Assembly (NCBI RefSeq): GCF_009833085.1
Contig: NZ_QRBZ01000002.1
Coordinates: forward strand, 1 to 64,000
Length of the DNA stretch: 64,000 bases
Origin: Nitrosomonas oligotropha
GTDB taxonomy: Bacteria; Pseudomonadota; Gammaproteobacteria; Burkholderiales; Nitrosomonadaceae
Direction: 5' to 3'
Shown: positions 3,631-36,056 of the stretch, piece after piece
Layout: every line of letters starts with the position of its first letter
Position numbering within the stretch: position 1 is the stretch's first letter
The notes under the pieces: model-generated
Seen by the model: only the letters and a program-made list of their open reading frames with translations
Database searches by the model: none
What the model was told of the DNA's origin: nothing
Program-made: the position numbers and the translations under genes

Positions 3631-4188
3631 CTATTTCCCACGTAGACTAAACCCCAACAACCCCAGCCCGGCCAGCAGCATGGCGTAGGTTGATGGCTCT
3701 GGTACCGCAACTAGGGGAACATCGCCGTGGTGGACTGGCCAAACGCTGAAACCGGTGATTCCTGGATCCGAGAAAGGGTATGTGTCGAGCATTCCGGGCG
3801 AGAATGCGGTTCTGTTGATTATGCCAATTACGTCCGAGACCCAGTACCAATTAACCCAGCCCGGCTTATCCAGTGGCGGCAGTGGGATTGATCCGGGGCC
3901 GCCCCATCCGATGATAATGGAGTGGTTGGCGGCGAAATCCATTAGCTCTCTCACTTTTGGTATTTCCCACCCGCCGGTCCCGCCGAGCGAAAATGTCGTC
4001 ATGAAGGACTCGTACTCAAAGTAATTCAATCCTAGCGTAAGATTCTGTTCCGGTGCCGCCCAGGTCAGGCCGGTGTCTGTGTCGTAGTAGGCCATCCCGC
4101 TGAGGCGCGGTTCCAGGGTTGCATTGGCGGTTGCGGCTGCTGTTAATAGGGTTGCTGTGAGTGCTGACAGGATTATTTTATTTTTCAT
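3631..4188 (-). CDS. PEP-CTERM protein with DUF1566-like domain
   Basis: The 185 residues include a signal peptide ending near TANA (about residue 23) and a C-terminal sorting signal, VPEPSTYAMLLAGLGLLGF, with a short basic tail (SLRGK). The mature part opens with YYDTDTGLTWAAPEQN and continues with a GGWEIPKVRELMDFA motif and a late WPVHH segment. This is the pattern of DUF1566/Lcl-type domains ('D..TGLTW', 'WRLPT..EL'). It is expected at the cell surface after exosortase processing. The gene sits between small unknowns and the HIRAN gene, all in the repressor direction, so it may be prophage cargo. Ribosome-binding site AGGAG lies before the ATG at 4188. Confidence 0.8.
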   Translation of the reverse strand: MKNKIILSALTATLLTAAATANATLEPRLSGMAYYDTDTGLTWAAPEQNLTLGLNYFEYESFMTTFSLGGTGGWEIPKVRELMDFAANHSIIIGWGGPGSIPLPPLDKPGWVNWYWVSDVIGIINRTAFSPGMLDTYPFSDPGITGFSVWPVHHGDVPLVAVPEPSTYAMLLAGLGLLGFSLRGK

Positions 4189-5690: not shown

Positions 5691-5801
5691 AGCGTTTAAG
5701 CGGGATATGCCGGTGAACCGGTGCTGTAAGTGATGAGGCCATGACTGTCCGGCTGCCCGCTGATTCCTATCAGCACTACCCGTTAGCGGGTAGCCGGTTT
5801 T
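5691..5801 (+). ncRNA. Structured RNA element with terminator after cro
   Basis: A long helix is formed by AGCGGG (5699-5704) with CCCGCT (5756-5761), and inside it GCCGG (5709-5713) with CCGGC (5749-5753). An intrinsic terminator follows (CTACCC at 5776-5781, GGGTAG at 5788-5793, then CCGG and T7). No protein frame fits. It may be a small RNA, an attenuator controlling read-through into the early operon, or an antitermination site similar in idea to HK022 put RNA. The sequence alone does not decide. Confidence 0.5.
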
Positions 5802-5908
5802 TTTGGATGGGATTTGGATTTATTGGGAGAAGGCTACATCCGAATGACCGGCATAGTCTATGACCATAACAAGCGCAGTAACACCAAACAAACAATAGAG
5901 GTGGAGCG

Positions 5909-6298
5909 ATGGATAATTTGAATGAAAGAAATGGGGTGATTAGCTTTGCTCTCGAAAAACCTGAAGAGTCAAAGCTAATCGCAACATTTAACGAATTACT
6001 TGCCGATCTTGCTAATGCTTCTCCCGAAATCCAAAGCAATGCTATCCGCTTGCTTAAGGATCTCTCTAAATTGGCCACCATCGATAGCGTCACCACACCC
6101 GGGGCAGCTATTACCATCTTGTTTAAACCATCGGACTTCTTGCTTGATGTTTGTATTGCAGTTCGTACAGGTAAGTTCGATAACTTGATCGTCGGGAATG
6201 AGCATAGTTTCTCCTCTGTTGATAGTGGGTTGCGGGAACTTCCTAGTTTATCAACATTGGAGAAACTTCCAATGAATGCGGAAAAAATGGCGGAATGA
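5909..6298 (+). CDS. Hypothetical early phage protein, 129 aa
   Basis: A good AGAGGTGGAG ribosome-binding site precedes the ATG. The first half is helical and plausible as protein (ESKLIATFNELLADLANAS), while the second half is less convincing. The gene completely covers the minus-strand zinc-ribbon gene at 5996-6205, which has its own ribosome-binding site. Either both are used, or one of them is a shadow. No family is recognised, and there are no membrane segments or known motifs. Confidence 0.4.
   Translation: MDNLNERNGVISFALEKPEESKLIATFNELLADLANASPEIQSNAIRLLKDLSKLATIDSVTTPGAAITILFKPSDFLLDVCIAVRTGKFDNLIVGNEHSFSSVDSGLRELPSLSTLEKLPMNAEKMAE
5996..6205 (-). CDS. Small zinc-ribbon protein (antisense, nested)
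   Basis: This 69-aa protein has two CxxC knuckles: C13/C16 in LTCTNCNTN and C34/C37 in NSCPGCGD, 17 residues apart. A C-terminal helix follows (GGQFREILKQADSIALDFGR). The pattern matches widespread small zinc-ribbon proteins with the form 'CPNC...W......CPGCG..id..qF'. A GAGGAG ribosome-binding site lies 5 bases before the ATG. The gene is antisense to and inside the frame at 5909-6298. It probably binds nucleic acid or a protein partner; its function is unknown. Confidence 0.6.
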   Translation of the reverse strand: MLIPDDQVIELTCTNCNTNIKQEVRWFKQDGNSCPGCGDAIDGGQFREILKQADSIALDFGRSISKIGK

Positions 6299-8054: not shown

Positions 8055-8735
8055 ATGAGTAAAAATCCTCTAGGCGTTCAAGCGCCCGTAGTATTCAGTT
8101 TTAATTCCCTTTCCATTCGCGCTGTCACTGATGAACATGGTAATCCGTGGTTCGTTGCCAGTGATGCTTGCAACATACTTGGCTACAGAAACAGCAGTAA
8201 GGCAATTGAAGATCATTGCCGTGAAGCTGGTGTAACGAAACGTTACATCAGGTCAGGTGGGCAGAATCGTAAAGTAACCTTCATCAACGAAGGTAATCTT
8301 TATCGCCTGATCATCAAATCCAAGAAACCGGAAGCGGAAAAATTTGAGCGGCTGGTGATGGAAGAAATCCTCCCGGCCATTCGCAAAACCGGCAGTTATT
8401 CCGGCGGCAAAAAACAAATAACGGAAAAACCGGCCAATCAGCCTAAACGCTACAACTACCCGCGGGCTCTGCTGGAACAGCCTTACTTCACGACAGAAAA
8501 GTATTCCGCTCGCTTGAGCGTCAAGATGCTGAGCAATACGAAGAAATTCATTTCGCCGTTGTTGAGCTTGCTCAATGAAATGCGGGTCGACGGTCACGAT
8601 GTTTCCGGCCCGCTGGCTGAGGCGCAAGCGTTGCGCGAGGCATTGATAACGGCGGATGAAGCGCTTTCAGAAATATGGGACACCGTACTGAGAGCGCAAA
8701 ACATTCCAACTAGCCAAGCGCTGGGGTCGAAATGA
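8055..8735 (+). CDS. BRO-N domain phage antirepressor-like protein
   Basis: I take the ATG at 8055 (MSKNPLGVQAPVVFSF), with GGAG 10 bases upstream; the longer open frame begins with implausible sequence. The BRO-N domain covers about residues 14-110, with IRAVTDEHGNPWFVASDACN, ILGYRNSSKAIEDHC and the later FERLVMEEILPAIRKTGSY, a classic ending of the domain. A C-terminal helical region follows. BRO proteins bind DNA and often act as antirepressors or early regulators. The stop overlaps the next start (ATGA at 8732-8735). Confidence 0.85.
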   Translation: MSKNPLGVQAPVVFSFNSLSIRAVTDEHGNPWFVASDACNILGYRNSSKAIEDHCREAGVTKRYIRSGGQNRKVTFINEGNLYRLIIKSKKPEAEKFERLVMEEILPAIRKTGSYSGGKKQITEKPANQPKRYNYPRALLEQPYFTTEKYSARLSVKMLSNTKKFISPLLSLLNEMRVDGHDVSGPLAEAQALREALITADEALSEIWDTVLRAQNIPTSQALGSK

Positions 8736-11164
8736 CTTCGCGCCGTCCTCCGATTGATTTCCACTCAATCGCCAGCGCCGCATTAGGCAGTGCGCGGCAC
8801 TGGCTGGCGGAGTGGTTGCCGGGTGGTGAGTGGTCGGGCGATGAGTACAAGCCGCGCAATCCTACGCGGGATGACAAGCGGCCTGGGTCGTTCGTTATCA
8901 ATGCGCGGACTGGCAAGTGGATCGACAATGCCACCAGTGATTCCGGCGGCGATCTGATCAGCCTGTATGCGTACATTAATTTTGTGGATCAGATCGCTGC
9001 GGCCAGGGCAGTGGCGGCGATGATTGGGGTTGTAATAGATGAGGGTGGCGATGCGCGGGGTACCGAGACGGCTTCGATTGATGCGAGCGCGGGAGCAAAG
9101 ACTCAAGCTAAAACGCAACAAAAAACAGGAAAAATCCCGCTTAACGAAATTCAGCGTGAGCATGCCAAAACCCCTTGGGTTCCTATCATGCCGGTACCGG
9201 ACGATGCGCCGGTTCCACCGGTTGCGCATTATGTGCGTGGGCGGCCTGATGCTGTTTATATTTATCAGTCATCCGATGCCCGCGTTAATGGTTTTGTTTA
9301 CCGGTTTGTGACGTCCGATGGCGGAAAGGAAACGCTGCCGGTTAGTTTCTGCCGCAACCGCGATGACGGCAAGCAGGAATGGCGGTGGATGGGATTCCCT
9401 GAGCCGCGTCCGCTTTATGGGTTGGATATTCTGGCTTTGTATCCCGATCTTCCGGTGTTGTTGGTTGAGGGTGAGAAGTGCGCGGATGCCGGGCATGCGG
9501 TGTTGCATGATACCTATGTAACCGTGACCTGGCCTGGTGGGACGAAAGCGGTTAAGAAAGTTGATTGGTCACCACTGGCTGGAAGGAAAATATTCGCCTG
9601 GGCTGATTGCGACGCGCAGCGCAGGAAATTGACTGGGCATGAGAAGTCGACCGGTGTTGATCCTGATTCCGTGCCGTTGCTGCCGGAATCCGATCAGCCG
9701 GGTATGCGTGCAATGCGAGAGATCCACAAGATTCTGCTGGAAATTAATCCGGATGTTGATTTTCGTTTTGTTGATATCCCAAAGCCTGGTGACAAGCCGG
9801 GTGGTTGGGATATTGCGGATGCTATTCAAGATGGGATGGATTGGGGTGATTTGGTTGCGTTCATTTCAAAAGTACGGCAACCAGCCACGAAACAACTACA
9901 AAAAGGCACCGTGAATCGTTCCGATAACGGGCTTTTGTTGAATAGAGACAGAGAGATACGCGCTTGTTTAGCTAATATTTACGACATTCTGCGCACGGAT
10001 TCGCGGTGGAGTGGCGTGCTGGCGTTTAATGAGTTCGCCTACACCATCGAGAAATTAAAGCCGCCGCCATTTGACTACGGCGCTGTTGGTGAGTGGGAGG
10101 CGAACGACGATGTGCAGGCTTCGATGTGGCTTACCCGTGAGTATGGTTTCGCTCCAACGCCTGCGCAGGTTGGGGAGGCCGTCGAAGCGCTGGCGCGGGC
10201 GAATGGTTTCCATCCGGTGCGCAATTACCTGAATTCTTTGAAGTGGGACGGTGTTCCGCGACTGGATGAGTGGCTATTCGATTACATCGGCGCGGCCAAG
10301 AGTCCCTACACGATGCGTGTTGCCCGTTGGTTTTTGATGGGGATGGTCGCGCGGGTGATGGAGCCGGGGGTTAAGTTTGATTGCTGCTTGGTGCTTGAGG
10401 GTACGCAAGGGCGGCGCAAGTCGGCGATGTTGCGCGTTTTGGCCGGGGAGTGGTTCGGCGATACCGATCTGGATTTGAACAATAAAGATTCTATGGGTTC
10501 GATTCGCGGCAAGTGGTTGTATGAGTTTGCGGAGTTGGATTCTATTGCCCGGGCTGAGGCTACGCGGCAGAAGTCGTTTTTATCCCGGCAGGTGGATGAG
10601 TACCGCCCGCCGTATGGTCGCAGGGACATTCGCAGCCCGCGCCAGCTTGTGTTTGGGGGAAGTACAAACGTCAACTGGGGTTGGAATAAGGATGAGACCG
10701 GCGGACGTCGATTCTGGCCGATTGAGTGCTCTTACGATATCGACTGCGATGGATTGGCTGCGGTGCGTGACCAATTGTTTGCTGAGGCTTATGAGTTGTA
10801 CAAGCAGGGCAAGCGGTTCTGGCCTACGTCTGAGGAACAGAAAGCAATATTCGATCCTGTGCAGATGATGCGCCACCAGGTTGACAGTTATGTTGAGCTG
10901 TTGGCTGATTTTGTGGCTCAGAGGGTTACTGAGTTTCGCATGATCGATGCTGTGGATTGTTTGAAGATCGATCCGGCGCGGTTGACGCGGGATATTCAAA
11001 CGCGCGTTGGCAAGGCGTTGATCATGCTGGGTTGTAAACGTGTTGAGAAGAGGGCGAATGCCGTCAGGTTTTGGTATCAGCCGCCGGTTACTCCGGGCGG
11101 AACTGGGGACAAGAATGATGGAACGGGTGTTGATGGAGGGTTTGCCGATGGCATTCCTTTCTAA
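8732..11164 (+). CDS. Phage replication protein: primase-like plus VirE-type helicase
   Basis: This 810-aa fusion has three parts. The N-terminal part (about 1-100) resembles the DNA-binding region of phage primases (GKWIDNATSDSGGDLISLYA). A TOPRIM-like segment with LPVLLVEGEKCADAGHAVL lies near residues 240-258. The C-terminal VirE/PF05272-type ATPase (about 490-740) has LVLEGTQGRRKSAML as P-loop, where the usual GK glycine is Arg, and FAELDSIARAEATRQKSFLS plus GGSTNVNWGWNKDETGGRRF as later motifs. It probably primes and unwinds phage DNA. The repeat-rich segment directly downstream (11169-11420) may be its origin. Confidence 0.85.
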   Translation: MTSRRPPIDFHSIASAALGSARHWLAEWLPGGEWSGDEYKPRNPTRDDKRPGSFVINARTGKWIDNATSDSGGDLISLYAYINFVDQIAAARAVAAMIGVVIDEGGDARGTETASIDASAGAKTQAKTQQKTGKIPLNEIQREHAKTPWVPIMPVPDDAPVPPVAHYVRGRPDAVYIYQSSDARVNGFVYRFVTSDGGKETLPVSFCRNRDDGKQEWRWMGFPEPRPLYGLDILALYPDLPVLLVEGEKCADAGHAVLHDTYVTVTWPGGTKAVKKVDWSPLAGRKIFAWADCDAQRRKLTGHEKSTGVDPDSVPLLPESDQPGMRAMREIHKILLEINPDVDFRFVDIPKPGDKPGGWDIADAIQDGMDWGDLVAFISKVRQPATKQLQKGTVNRSDNGLLLNRDREIRACLANIYDILRTDSRWSGVLAFNEFAYTIEKLKPPPFDYGAVGEWEANDDVQASMWLTREYGFAPTPAQVGEAVEALARANGFHPVRNYLNSLKWDGVPRLDEWLFDYIGAAKSPYTMRVARWFLMGMVARVMEPGVKFDCCLVLEGTQGRRKSAMLRVLAGEWFGDTDLDLNNKDSMGSIRGKWLYEFAELDSIARAEATRQKSFLSRQVDEYRPPYGRRDIRSPRQLVFGGSTNVNWGWNKDETGGRRFWPIECSYDIDCDGLAAVRDQLFAEAYELYKQGKRFWPTSEEQKAIFDPVQMMRHQVDSYVELLADFVAQRVTEFRMIDAVDCLKIDPARLTRDIQTRVGKALIMLGCKRVEKRANAVRFWYQPPVTPGGTGDKNDGTGVDGGFADGIPF

Positions 11165-11168
11165 AAAC

Positions 11169-11420
11169 TTCCATACCTCGCTTGAGGTATGGAACAAGTA
11201 TGGAACCTGGAAAGGCGCATGGAAGCTTGTTCTTCCATACCTTCCATACCTTCCATACCTGGCACCTCCCGCGTGTATACGTGCGGGTGCGCGTGCGTGT
11301 GCGCGCGCGTGTATGCGTATGTGTGTTTTTAGTATGGAAGGTATGGATGTATGGAAGAGGTGCATGAATAAATGATCTCCAACTTCCACACCTGTTCCAT
11401 ACCTGTCTATAGGTATGGAA
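11169..11420. other. Putative phage replication origin: iterons plus alternating Pu/Py tract
   Basis: The 9-mer TTCCATACC or its complement GGTATGGAA recurs many times. Exact copies are at 11169, 11186 (inverted), 11233, 11242, 11251, 11395 and 11412 (inverted). One-mismatch copies are at 11197, 11331, 11340, 11348 and 11384. Three are head-to-tail without gaps (11233-11259). The outermost pairs form palindromes (11169-11194 and 11395-11420). Between the two groups lies a GT/GC alternating tract (about 11271-11326) prone to Z-DNA or easy opening. The last copy abuts the next gene and supplies its GGAAG ribosome-binding site. Confidence 0.6.
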
Positions 11421-11421
11421 G

Positions 11422-11700
11422 ATGAGTGAAAAGATTGATCCGGTTCCGCAGGATGGTCCTGTTAGCAGAGACCAAGTGCGCGCTTTGTTTCCAGAGGTTA
11501 CGGCTGTGGCTGACAAGATACGGGCTGAGTTCGGTAATGGTGTGAAGCTGGTTTACGCGGAAGAGCATGGCCGGTGCATCGGCAAGCGGTCTGTTGTTGA
11601 TCCTGATGGTTTGGTTAAGTTGAGCGAGATGGTTCTGGATTCGCGCCCGTATGCGGAGATTGTGGCTGAGCGTGAGAAGGGGATGAAACGTGCGAAGTAA
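11422..11700 (+). CDS. Hypothetical 92-aa phage protein
   Basis: It starts MSEKIDPVPQDGPVSRDQVR two bases after the last GGTATGGAA repeat, whose GGAAG serves as ribosome-binding site; a protein bound to the repeat could therefore affect its translation. The protein is small, charged and helical, with no metal or membrane motif, and ends in MKRAK. It is probably an early or middle protein following the replication gene. No family is recognised. Confidence 0.6.
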   Translation: MSEKIDPVPQDGPVSRDQVRALFPEVTAVADKIRAEFGNGVKLVYAEEHGRCIGKRSVVDPDGLVKLSEMVLDSRPYAEIVAEREKGMKRAK

Positions 11701-12818: not shown

Positions 12819-13286
12819 ATGACAAAAGCCACAGTTACAAAAATAAATGAAGGAAGGCGCGGTAAGCGTGGGCTCAATAAGCAAGAGCCAGATCCGGAAT
12901 ATTTATCGGATCTGACGCCGCCATCATTTCTATCTGAAGCGGGAAAAGAAGTGTGGAATGAAATTGCACCTGAGCTTCGCAAAGCAAAGCTGCTCGCAAA
13001 GATAGACATACCAATGCTATCGATGGGATGCGAGGCGCTTGCCAGATACAGAAAGCTGACAAAAGAATCCATTGAAGATCAATGCGGCATAGGATCTGAA
13101 GAAGACAAAAAAGACGCATGGATAAAAACCACAATCCAATCCATGAGCTTTAAACAAGCAATGCAGGTCATGCAACAATTTGGCATGTCGCCAATGGCGC
13201 GGACAAAAATAGCAATACAGCCGCAAGGCGACTTATTCGGTAATGAACCGCCAGGTAAAGGCTACTTCACGCGACCCAGTAACTAG
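12819..13286 (+). CDS. terS: Terminase small subunit, P27 family
   Basis: This 155-aa protein begins with the typical basic, low-complexity N-terminus (TKINEGRRGKRGLNKQEPDP). The P27 signature follows: PPSFLSEAGKEVWNEIAPEL and then LLAKIDIPMLSMGCEALARY. It should recognise the cos or pac site and load the large subunit. The C-terminus overlaps the large-subunit gene by 44 bases in another frame. A 112-base gap before it contains a G7 tract (about 12788-12794) that might belong to a packaging site. Confidence 0.85.
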   Translation: MTKATVTKINEGRRGKRGLNKQEPDPEYLSDLTPPSFLSEAGKEVWNEIAPELRKAKLLAKIDIPMLSMGCEALARYRKLTKESIEDQCGIGSEEDKKDAWIKTTIQSMSFKQAMQVMQQFGMSPMARTKIAIQPQGDLFGNEPPGKGYFTRPSN

Positions 13287-14967
13287 ATACGCACGCAACG
13301 TTCTCTCAGGAAAAATCATCGCAGGCCCGCACGTCAGGGCCGCATGCCAAAGACACATCGATGACCTAAAAGGAGCCCCGCTAAGGGGCTTTTTTTTCGA
13401 CCTGGAAAAAGTTGAGCGCGTTATCGGATTCTACCGGGACGTACTCAAGCTCAATGGCGGAGAATATGAAAACAAACCGTTCGAGCTCCTCGAATGGGAA
13501 AAATTCGTAGTAGGAAGCATCTTCGGCTGGGTAGATGAAAACGGCATGCGGCGGTTCCGCATCCTCTACACAGAAACAGCGAAGGGTAGCGGAAAATCAC
13601 CGCTGCAAGCCGGGATAGGACTTTACTGTCTGGTTGCCGATGGTGAAAGCCGCGCGGAAATATACGCCGCCGCAACGAAAAAAGATCAGGCAATGATCCT
13701 GTTCCGCGATGCGGTAGCGATGGTCAATCAATCGCCAGACCTATCCGCGGTCATTAAAAAAAGCGGCGTCGGTGAACAAACCTGGAACCTATCGTACACC
13801 CTTGGTGACGGCAGTTTCTTCCGTCCGATATCATCGGACGATGGCCAATCAGGACCGCGCCCGCACGCCGGACTGATCGACGAAGTGCACGAACACAAAA
13901 CAGCGCTAGTCATCGACATGATGAAAGCCGGGTTCAAGTTCCGCAAGCAGCCGATCCTGTCGATGATTACCAACAGCGGCAGCGACAAGAAAACACCCTG
14001 CGGCGTGTTGCACGATTACGGCGTGAAAGTAGCATCGCAACAAATCGTTGACGACGAATTCTTCGCGTACATCTGCGCGCTGGATGAAACAGACGATCCG
14101 TTCAACGACGAAAAATGCTGGCCCAAGGCAAACCCAAGCCTGATACACGGACTGCCCGGCAAAAAATACCTGCGCAGCCAGGTCAAAGACGCCAAAGGCA
14201 TGCCCAGCAAAGAGGCCATCGTGCGGCGGCTGAATTTCTGCCAATGGACAGAAGCCTCAAATCCCTGGATATCCAGAGACGTCTGGCAAACTGCGCGCAG
14301 AGTTTACGACTGGCGCGACCTGCAAGGCCGCCGCGCATACGGCGGACTTGACCTATCGTCTACACAGGATTTAACAGGCCTGGTGTTATGGATAGAACCG
14401 GAACAGCAGGGCGATCCATGGCACCTCGTGCCGTTCGCATGGCTTCCAGAAAAAGGACTGTGGAGCAGGGAAGACAAAGACCGCGCGCCGTACACAACCT
14501 GGAAAATGGCCGGTTTCCTGGAAACCACTCCGGGGAATGCAATCAGCAAGCTGCATGTTTTAAAACGCCTGCACGAATTGCAAGACTTTTTCGACATTCA
14601 ATGCATAGCTTTTGACCGATGGCGGATAGAAGACCTCATTCAGATGGCAGCCGATTACGACATACCGCTGCCAGAAATGGTGCCGTTCGGCCAAGGTTAC
14701 AAAGACATGAGCCCGGCCTGCGAGGCATTTGAAACTGTGTTGCTGAACGGAGAAGCAGTCCACAACGGACATCCAATCCTGACCATGTGCGCAGCGAATG
14801 CAGTCATCGAACAAGACCCGGCGGGCAACGTGAAACTATCGAAAGTGAAAGCCACAGGCCGCATCGATCTGATGGTTGCGGCGGTTATGGGTGCGGGCGT
14901 TGCGTTGCAACACAAAGAAAAACCGGAAGAGACAATCTACAACCAGCGCGGAATTTTATTCGTATGA
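13243..14967 (+). CDS. terL: Terminase large subunit
   Basis: The 574-aa motor and nuclease packages the genome. The N-terminal ATPase shows a Walker A region TETAKGSGKSPL (about residue 110) and Walker B HAGLIDEVHEH (about 208). The C-terminal RNase-H-like nuclease has YGGLDLSSTQDLTGLVLW (near 365) and an IAFDRWRIEDLIQMA segment (near 455). Length and motifs fit the Terminase_1/HK97 group. The start at 13243 lies inside terS. An alternative later start cannot be excluded, but the early sequence (DPVTRYARNVLSGKIIAGPH) is family-like. Confidence 0.92.
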   Translation: MNRQVKATSRDPVTRYARNVLSGKIIAGPHVRAACQRHIDDLKGAPLRGFFFDLEKVERVIGFYRDVLKLNGGEYENKPFELLEWEKFVVGSIFGWVDENGMRRFRILYTETAKGSGKSPLQAGIGLYCLVADGESRAEIYAAATKKDQAMILFRDAVAMVNQSPDLSAVIKKSGVGEQTWNLSYTLGDGSFFRPISSDDGQSGPRPHAGLIDEVHEHKTALVIDMMKAGFKFRKQPILSMITNSGSDKKTPCGVLHDYGVKVASQQIVDDEFFAYICALDETDDPFNDEKCWPKANPSLIHGLPGKKYLRSQVKDAKGMPSKEAIVRRLNFCQWTEASNPWISRDVWQTARRVYDWRDLQGRRAYGGLDLSSTQDLTGLVLWIEPEQQGDPWHLVPFAWLPEKGLWSREDKDRAPYTTWKMAGFLETTPGNAISKLHVLKRLHELQDFFDIQCIAFDRWRIEDLIQMAADYDIPLPEMVPFGQGYKDMSPACEAFETVLLNGEAVHNGHPILTMCAANAVIEQDPAGNVKLSKVKATGRIDLMVAAVMGAGVALQHKEKPEETIYNQRGILFV

Positions 14968-35165: not shown

Positions 35166-36056
35166 TTACACAGAACTCTCTTTTCTGCGGCGTGCTGAAA
35201 ACCCTAGTAATCCCAAGCCTACCAGTAGCATGGCATAAGTTTCAGGTTCAGGGACGGCCATGATGTATTCATAACCTATTGTCGCGGATTGGCCGGCCGC
35301 AATAGTGTGGAGATCGTAGCCTATATTAATCGAGCTATCCGCAAATCCATAAGCACCGACTGCTTGCGCCGCAGCCAGCATTACACCTGGGAGAACAGGA
35401 GCACAGCAGCTCGCCGGATCAACGTAAGGCCGCATATCGAAAGCTCCGGCACTAGTGGTATTGGCCAGCGTGACCATAAAGCCATCCGCCGTTGCTGCCG
35501 AAACGGAAGAATCGGTAGTGCCTGTCGCGTTGATGTAATTGAATGTGCCATTGCCAAGGCCGACTGCTCTGCCTTGATCCGGGTCAAAACCAACGCCCCA
35601 GTGCACATCTTTGGCATCGACGCCGGTATTGTTCGTCAATTGTACTTTAACGGCAACATGGCCGGGTGCTGGGATACTGACCGTTTCTACGAAACCCCAG
35701 CCACCACCTCCGCCGCCGAGGTTCGTGGTAACCGATACCTGACCGCCGCCAAAAGGTCCAAAAGTTATTGAAGTCAGCGGATTGCTCAGCGCTACTTCAT
35801 CGGCTGTCGCCACAACTCCACCGTTGGCTTCAAGTGTGTAGTTGGATGCCTGAATATCCCAATTGACATATTCCCTCCCCATAAAGCTTAAACCGATACC
35901 GCCAGGCTGGAAATAACCAGCATCTGCGATCGTGGCAGAGGTACCAGCACCATCGGTAATGAAAACCGGTGCAGCCTGCACCGAGGTAATAGCAGCTCCA
36001 CATAAGGTAATAGCAAAGACTTGTGCAATACAGTTCTTTTTCAATTCGAATTTCAT
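35166..36056 (-). CDS. PEP-CTERM sorting domain protein
   Basis: This 296-aa exported protein has a signal peptide ending near SVQAAP (about residue 28) and a C-terminal sorting signal VPEPETYAMLLVGLGLLGF with a basic tail (SARRRKESSV). The central domain is Gly/Ala/Thr-rich and beta-like, with NLGGGGGGWGFVETVSIPAP and HWGVGFDPDQG as notable stretches. No enzyme motif is seen; surface or matrix attachment is likely. AATGGAGCAG gives the ribosome-binding site before ATG 36056. The upstream element at 36138-36164 is shared with the gene at 1000-1584. Confidence 0.88.
   Translation of the reverse strand: MKFELKKNCIAQVFAITLCGAAITSVQAAPVFITDGAGTSATIADAGYFQPGGIGLSFMGREYVNWDIQASNYTLEANGGVVATADEVALSNPLTSITFGPFGGGQVSVTTNLGGGGGGWGFVETVSIPAPGHVAVKVQLTNNTGVDAKDVHWGVGFDPDQGRAVGLGNGTFNYINATGTTDSSVSAATADGFMVTLANTTSAGAFDMRPYVDPASCCAPVLPGVMLAAAQAVGAYGFADSSINIGYDLHTIAAGQSATIGYEYIMAVPEPETYAMLLVGLGLLGFSARRRKESSV

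Follow-up and report, generated by a model that had tools for sequence, protein, structure and literature searches.

Directly behind a predicted replication gene of the VapE family, the 64,000-nucleotide stretch of Nitrosomonas oligotropha DNA analysed here (contig NZ_QRBZ01000002.1, positions 1 to 64,000; hereafter the window) carries a 252-bp array of short repeats, or iterons, at 11169..11420. Sequence comparisons indicate that this segment is very probably a prophage replication origin of the initiator-helicase type, like the Rep/ori systems of the staphylococcal pathogenicity islands (SaPIs). A first-pass annotation had proposed an origin bound by a phage initiator, and this proposal is supported by the association of such arrays with VapE genes, by a layout that is kept with other iterons, by the covariation of a single VapE residue (residue 780) with the iteron class, and by the small plasmid pGO128.

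The iteron element in the window

Seven perfect and five one-mismatch copies of the iteron TTCCATACC/GGTATGGAA lie in the element, in agreement with the seven exact and about five near copies that the first-pass annotation had reported in 252 bases, and any other 252-bp stretch of the window holds at most one copy with up to one mismatch. The element starts 4 bp past the stop codon of the gene at 8732..11164 and ends 1 bp before the ATG at 11422. The 12 iterons, as located by the iteron scan, form two mirror-image halves of six, one on each side of a 71-bp core (11260..11330) that separates the inner triples, in the order and orientation > < < (36 bp) > > > core < < < (36 bp) > > <. On the left, an outer group (> < <, 11169..11205) with a palindrome at 11169-11194 is followed by a gapless triple iteron of 9-bp period on the plus strand (11233..11259), which starts 36 bp from the start of the last outer-left copy (11197). 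On the right, an inverted triple of three one-mismatch copies on the minus strand (11331..11356) is followed by an outer group (> > <, 11384..11420) that starts 36 bp after 11348 and has a palindrome at 11395-11420. The whole element, the outer groups and the features of the core are not assigned to a strand. The gapless triple, the oppositely oriented groups and the two outer palindromes had all been described before and were all recovered. The alternating purine-pyrimidine tract, previously put at roughly 55 bases in the middle of the segment, measures 57 bp (11270..11326) with two breaks (at 11286/11287) and is Z-DNA-prone; its runs of 16 and 40 bp are the two longest perfect alternations in the window. 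A T-rich patch (11326..11330) forms the right edge of the core and is an instance of a recurrent A/T-rich edge.

The exact 9-mer is found 34 times in the 3.12-Mb genome, with 7 copies in the element and 27 scattered, which is close to the number expected by chance (about 24 by a rough estimate that takes equal base frequencies), and outside the element no two exact copies lie within 300 bp of each other. The count for the whole window is only mildly high (20 against a mean of 12.1 in dinucleotide shuffles, reached in 3 of 100). The extreme property of the 9-mer is its clustering, not its total number, and the genome-wide check suggested earlier finds no clustering elsewhere in the genome. A blastn comparison of the element with phages gave no match. 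No paper describing the element was found among the top matches covered in the open PMC literature, and among the matches listed for the 9-mer string the topics are unrelated by title.

Recurrence of the element and its association with VapE

A scan for the exact tandem 18-mer TTCCATACCTTCCATACC gave 131 loci, of which 60 are stretches of viral contigs and 71 of genome contigs. A two-orientation cluster, for which each orientation had to be represented by two or more copies inside 300 bp, is present in 65 of these loci, and a VapE relative is encoded in 62 of the 65. The clusters without VapE are L019 and L109, both less than 300 bp from the end of the locus, and L093, which has four sites. 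Among the 66 loci without a two-orientation cluster, 62 are also without VapE and 4 have VapE and three sites. These figures come from selection by an exact 18-mer, which favours well-kept elements. An iteron array directly downstream of the helicase gene is found in the window and in many VapE loci.

Seventeen genome loci with both a cluster and VapE carry names that we take to be those of Betaproteobacteria (Nitrosomonas, Methylophilaceae, Methylovorus, Methylobacillus, Dechloromonas, Accumulibacter, Rhodoferax, Lautropia and others), except L124, which is named only Proteobacteria. In the window's own family the 18-mer occurs in 8 of 125 genomes, its own genome included, all of the same genus. 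A locus search with a single protein returned one locus, on the same contig as L043. The possibility that the array is a product of chance or a simple repeat was rejected, as several of the TTCCATACC tandem arrays that occur without VapE (L072, L117, L118 and L119) are one-directional or nearly so.

Residue 780 follows the iteron class

Two iteron classes were compared, class A being TTCCATACC and class B being TTCC[TC]AACC (TTCCYAACC). From 196 VapE loci, 83 distinct rows were obtained with at least three class A or class B iterons and enough protein, a TTCCCAACC scan having been included. Residue 780, which is Phe in the window (codon at 11069..11071, plus strand), separates the two classes completely: class A rows have Phe (46), His (3) or Ser (1), and class B rows have Tyr (21) or Arg (12). 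The next-best separation among the 35 columns compared is 0.63. The Arg rows carry a wing insertion, so the alignment of residue 780 is less sure there, and one of them, L273, is a very long branch. In none of the 196 VapE loci do both iteron classes occur within 400 bp of the stop codon.

Tyr was first seen in aligned C-termini at the TTCCTAACC loci L148, L151 and L155, the TTCCATACC loci having Phe, His or Ser. A later scan for tandem TTCCTAACC, before which the prediction of Tyr had been noted, gave 31 stretches, 26 with VapE, and Tyr was present in 26 of 26, a set that includes near-duplicates and three starting contigs. On a quick tree built from residues 400-725, with the winged helix left out, the iteron class changes 11 times, and 7 of these changes are forced by supported branches. 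Of 7 independent pairs with branch support, 6 to 7 have Tyr together with class B and none shows the reverse (sign test p 0.016-0.031); when Tyr and Arg are combined, which was decided once the data had been seen, the figure is 7 of 7. This covariation is strong evidence that the VapE protein reads the iterons, and it points to the C-terminal domain as the putative reader. As a side observation, four loci without VapE (L260, L266, L267 and L280) have TTCCCAACC tandem pairs exactly 288 bp apart and in one orientation, and these repeats are probably of another nature.

The covariation also bears on whether the segment acts as RNA, that is, as a terminator or structured leader formed from its inverted repeats, which we regard as very unlikely. 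Four terminator-like matches are present in 11000-11600 where 0.6 are expected, but palindromic iterons with T runs are expected to produce such matches, and the 13 weak Rfam matches to the element include none near the gathering score. Moreover, the iteron letters follow a protein residue, and the order of the sites varies while their number and spacing stay.

Spacing, site number and the alternating core

The core was measurable in 76 of the 83 rows; 7 were dropped for having too few sites or no core of 45-115 bp. Where an outer group is present, its spacing to the inner group is 35 or 36 bp in 72 of 72 cases on the left and 64 of 66 on the right, and the inner groups are 3+3 in 60 of 76 rows. 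The sites per half were countable in 80 of the 83 rows. With up to two mismatches allowed, six sites are present in 59 left halves, 53 right halves and both halves of 43 of the 80 rows; with up to one mismatch these numbers are 51, 42 and 31. Six is the commonest count per half, and the order of orientations varies (>><>>>, <<<>>>, ><<>>>). That the number of sites is kept while their order varies suggests a stoichiometric constraint, and we infer that six sites per half would fit a hexamer. Three viral contigs with VapE (L181, L183 and L185) have 18, 17 and 15 exact TGTCCCA copies before the core, arranged in outer blocks that seem to be duplicated, with steps of 57 bp.

In 52 class A cores, the window included, the fraction of purine-pyrimidine steps is 0.74 as compared to 0.50 after shuffling, with p<0.01 in 50 of the 52, and 43 of 45 class A cores lie above the 99th percentile of random windows of the same loci. 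For class B cores, 27 of the 31 measured coming from later scans, the mean alternation is 0.706 as compared to 0.519 in 1492 random windows of class A and class B loci, and 24 of 31 lie above the 99th percentile. CG, CA, TG and TA steps all occur in the tracts, which are not simple repeats; the core stays alternating although its sequence drifts.

The tract had been called easily opened in the first-pass annotation, a description that suits the short A/T-rich edges and not the tract itself. Class A cores have a mean of 63% GC, with A+T low inside the tract and high close to the inner iterons, within about 5 bases, where it reaches as much as 96% on the right. Parts of one study describe alternating purine-pyrimidine sequence, CG above all, as the most Z-DNA-prone under superhelical stress (PMC3024258). 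Since the tract is GC-rich, it would be Z-DNA-prone rather than easily melted, and the short A/T-rich edge patches appear to be the likelier opening points.

The same design with other iterons in phages and plasmids

A VapE alignment-based scan that was blind to repeats gave the best 80 of at least 590 confirmed relatives, and deduplication, which dropped relatives matching the 18-mer loci, left 64 protein-selected loci. A strict test for tandem plus inverted-tandem repeats after VapE was passed by 23 of the 64: 5 of 5 loci with at least 45% identity, 14 of 40 with 38-45% and 4 of 19 with 30-38%. Keeping of the array by related phages, a check proposed at the outset, is therefore seen in all five non-redundant relatives of at least 45% identity, and distant ones often fail the strict test. 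Over all non-redundant loci, which include the 18-mer-selected loci and phage records and were thus partly chosen for their repeats, the test was passed by 74 of 121. None of 605 shuffles and none of 324 coding windows passed it.

The iterons vary by lineage and include TTCCTAACC, TGTCCCAC, CGTCCAAC, TTCCCAACC, GTGGTCAT and more. By eye, the gap that follows VapE has two-orientation repeats round an A/T-rich core in phages of Pasteurella, Bacteroides and Acutalibacter and in two plasmids of acetic-acid bacteria, and in Staphylococcus phage 2638A there are four copies against one. Marinobacter phage PS3 and Pseudomonas phage Haddon have a short alternating stretch together with an A/T-rich part, and the arrays of VarioGold, Aval, Comamonas and Javan405 are sparse.

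The plasmid pGO128 of Gluconobacter oxydans is circular, with 4340 bp and five annotated genes in PLSDB. Among these genes only the one for a VapE-family protein is a plausible Rep gene, and it is followed immediately by a two-orientation array whose core is A/T-rich. For the wider family, this is indirect evidence that such a protein and its array may sustain replication in the cell. The plasmid's name was found in no paper among the matches listed. Komagataeibacter pKNA06, as far as the part viewed, is similar to pGO128 and larger (25.8 kb), and a Comamonas 'plasmid' of 36.9 kb, which has genes for VapE, terminase and CII, is a phage-like replicon. In a Comamonas odontotermitis plasmid (L292), iterons of the form TGTTCACC/GGTGAACA lie behind the VapE gene at 5800-6090; they look like the type I iteron of phage P4, and are a possible link between P4-type and VapE-type origins.

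The VapE protein and the prophage surroundings

The gene upstream of the element (8732..11164, plus strand) encodes a predicted VapE initiator of 810 amino acids, with a probable primase-like N-terminal half, a superfamily 3 (SF3)-like VapE helicase and a C-terminal winged-helix-like domain. The earlier description had placed the segment directly after a primase/VirE-like gene; the gene 4 bp upstream does encode a VapE helicase (PF05272, E=1e-71), and its predicted primase character comes from fold and PHROG matches. The helicase half resembles 7pds, the structure of SaPI5 PriRep1 with double-stranded DNA, by sequence (E=1e-41) and by Foldseek (E=3e-26). By PF05272 and by the sequence and fold match to 7pds, the initiator falls among the SF3/VapE or D5-like helicases, and by analogy it would be self-loading. 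Pfam gives VapE only, and a RepA/Rep_3-type winged-helix initiator without a helicase, as used by classic iteron plasmids (RepA/RepE type), was not found.

The product also matches PHROG primase/helicase families, and Foldseek matches it to DnaG and T7 gp4 primase structures; the output lacks the aligned range, and these matches presumably fall in the N-terminal half. A low-threshold Pfam scan of this half gave no primase domain and no Toprim, and DUF6371 alone appeared, below the cut-off. The N-terminal half is probably primase-like on the basis of the fold and PHROG matches. In an AlphaFold2 model with a predicted local distance difference test score (pLDDT) of 82, residues 735-785 (10934..11086, plus strand) form a winged-helix-like unit with helices 737-743 and 753-765 and strands 769-772 and 780-783, and this region, from the model and the alignments, is the proposed iteron reader. 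An AlphaFold model of the winged helix alone was poor (pLDDT 53) and was not used. Across loci, N-terminal modules differ or are missing on the same VapE core, winged helix and iterons, as seen when L018 and L056 are compared with L031, L092 and L108 and with L013, L033, L048 and L068; the VapE of L018 has a DnaG zinc ribbon and that of L092 a PriCT_2 domain. The primase part looks as if it is swapped independently of the origin reader.

Immediately downstream, a small open reading frame (11422..11700, plus strand) has a product with no family in Pfam, PHROG or NCBIfam. The last inverted repeat and the start codon after it lie at 11411-11424 in the window; across elements this repeat is often AGGTATGGAA, and the start reads ATGAGC several times. 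The AGG of the last repeat could be the ribosome-binding site of the downstream gene, which would hint at a coupling of initiator binding and expression. The distance from the last repeat to a start codon is 15 bp or less in 43 of 60 elements, a count made without a chance control, so the translational control of the 11422 gene that had been suggested is suggestive only. The same proximity is what would be expected of an element that is mainly an operator, through which VapE or another regulator controls its own operon and the downstream gene, and initiators often autoregulate. Nevertheless, this account is unlikely: no sigma-70-type promoter match was found in 11000-11600, in a scan limited to that promoter type, 12 sites and a conserved core exceed the apparent need of an operator, and the array of pGO128 follows its only plausible annotated Rep gene. 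An operator role may exist alongside the origin function.

CII-like and antirepressor genes precede VapE, and HNH, small and large terminase subunit genes (12819-13286 and 13243-14967) and a portal gene follow it. Because HNH and then both terminase subunits lie downstream, a packaging (cos or pac) site was considered; we give it very little weight, since the element tracks VapE and one VapE residue and pGO128 has no annotated phage structural or packaging gene. Furthermore, the annotated right cohesive end of Variovorax phage VarioGold, whose element is a weak variant, is about 1.6 kb off, beyond HNH. Symmetric iteron arrays also occur at centromere-like sites, which would suit a partition site, or one for integration or recombination; however, no gene for partition or for a recombinase was recognised among the 10 proteins scanned around the element and the association is with VapE across diverse loci, which makes this extremely improbable. 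Three PEP-CTERM proteins are encoded on both sides of the prophage genes (1000-1584, 3631-4188 and 35166-36056), all on the minus strand.

Weighing the origin reading and a proposed mechanism

Several observations weigh against reading the element as an origin of this type. The strict test was failed by 41 of the 64 protein-selected loci (0 of 5 at 45% identity or more, 26 of 40 at 38-45% and 15 of 19 at 30-38%), and a relaxed iteron count is too noisy at low thresholds; at nine or more copies 38 of 64 loci pass, the maximum being 8 in 192 shuffles and 10 in 124 coding windows. No array is present behind VapE in Elizabethkingia phage TCUEAP1 and none is obvious in Burkholderia phage Mica. Some class A elements hold three to four sites (L012, L017, L108 and L128; L027, L031, L073 and L092). 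PLSDB, from which the gene table of pGO128 is taken, is known to have gaps, and it is possible that a Rep gene was missed. The AlphaFold2 model is confident within domains and not in their arrangement (predicted template modelling score, pTM, 0.46). The cores of plasmids and of several phages of other groups are AT-rich by eye, and an alternating core is therefore inessential to the wider system.

Skew, finally, does not point clearly to an origin, either in the window or over 39 loci. In the window the shift lies near 12.4 kb, about 1 kb to the right of the element; between 12000 and 13000 the AT skew goes from about -0.2 to +0.3 and the GC skew from about +0.3 to 0, with the main genes on both sides on the plus strand. 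Over the 39 loci the VapE side has a GC skew of 0.096, as compared to 0.031 at 1-4 kb on the opposite side, and is the higher of the two in 30 of 39. The difference is small and open to gene-content effects, and GC or AT skew was rejected as an origin signal; the GC-skew check put forward earlier is not diagnostic.

If the element is the origin, initiation may proceed as follows. VapE would be a self-loading helicase, probably fused to a primase, that reads the iterons with its C-terminal winged helix, and in each half-origin one iteron would be bound per subunit of one hexamer. Two facing hexamers would form over the core. Negative supercoiling, or strain induced by the initiator, could flip this core to left-handed DNA, and it would open at the A/T-rich edges. 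Unwinding by the helicase domains would follow, and the N-terminal part would prime both forks. Binding at the last repeat, which abuts the next start codon, may couple replication to downstream expression. A broader proposal is offered with somewhat less than even confidence: these elements would form a large class of phage origins, so far without a name. Each half-origin of six sites would place a single VapE hexamer, evolution would preserve alternation, which favours Z-DNA, and not sequence, Z-DNA or the B-Z junctions at the A/T-rich edges would trigger opening, and specificity would lie largely in one wing residue.

Significance and comparison with known systems

This kind of origin is already known. 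As far as the literature searched is concerned, four things are new: its spread among these phages, a conserved alternating core, a register of six sites per half, and the covariation of residue and iteron. VapE genes are often treated as virulence-associated (for example in PMC10101091 and PMC8424206); those described here seem to encode replication initiators and to be followed by a readable origin. In a portion of the report on Marinobacter phage PS3 the helicase is called missing and replication unclear (PMC8424206), and PS3 carries a VapE gene with an array behind it. With the rule of VapE stop, iterons, core and inverted iterons, origins could be called in many phages and in a number of plasmids. 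The count of six sites per half offers a stoichiometry of helicase loading that can be tested, and the alternating core makes a role of left-handed DNA in replication initiation directly testable.

In SaPI origins, two iteron sets flank an AT-rich region. The window element also has two sets, but in place of an AT-rich centre its core is GC-rich (63%) and alternating, with short A/T-rich edges. The window VapE is structurally similar to SaPI5 PriRep1 (7pds). Unlike the SaPI systems, it has an N-terminal half with DnaG/T7-primase-like fold matches, it occurs in betaproteobacterial prophages, and its origin usually has six sites per half in a fixed 35/36-bp register. According to sections of one study (PMC7581432), SaPI Rep/ori and Cch2 of the staphylococcal cassette chromosome SCCmec share with the present proposal a self-loading initiator helicase whose C-terminal domain reads short iterons placed directly after the gene that encodes it, Cch2 assembles into hexamers and dodecamers, and the SaPIbov1 and SaPI5 primases are of the archaeo-eukaryotic primase type.

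The window protein may resemble the alpha protein of phage P4: Pfam recognises a helicase, a winged helix is modelled, and fold and PHROG matches suggest a primase, for which Pfam gives no Toprim match. P4 also depends on crr, a distant second region in cis that carries the same repeats; no further iteron cluster was found in the window or in the own-genome 9-mer list, crr as such not having been searched for. The iteron differs from that of P4, and we know of no alternating core for P4. As described in parts of PMC4234260, the P4 alpha protein has a bacterial-type primase, a helicase and a C-terminal winged helix, and it binds origin repeats, unwinds and primes; in the crenarchaeal plasmid pRN1, the origin lies downstream of the gene for ORF904, a primase-helicase with a C-terminal winged helix. 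Unlike the window element, the pRN1 origin is a stem-loop without iterons.

The SF3 double hexamers of SV40 T antigen and the poxvirus helicases have a related helicase fold, and the Foldseek matches to the window protein include a poxvirus homologue in the form of a head-to-head double hexamer. T antigen, as stated in a part of PMC7581432, recognises its origin with its N-terminal domain, unlike the C-terminal reader proposed for the VapE protein of the window.
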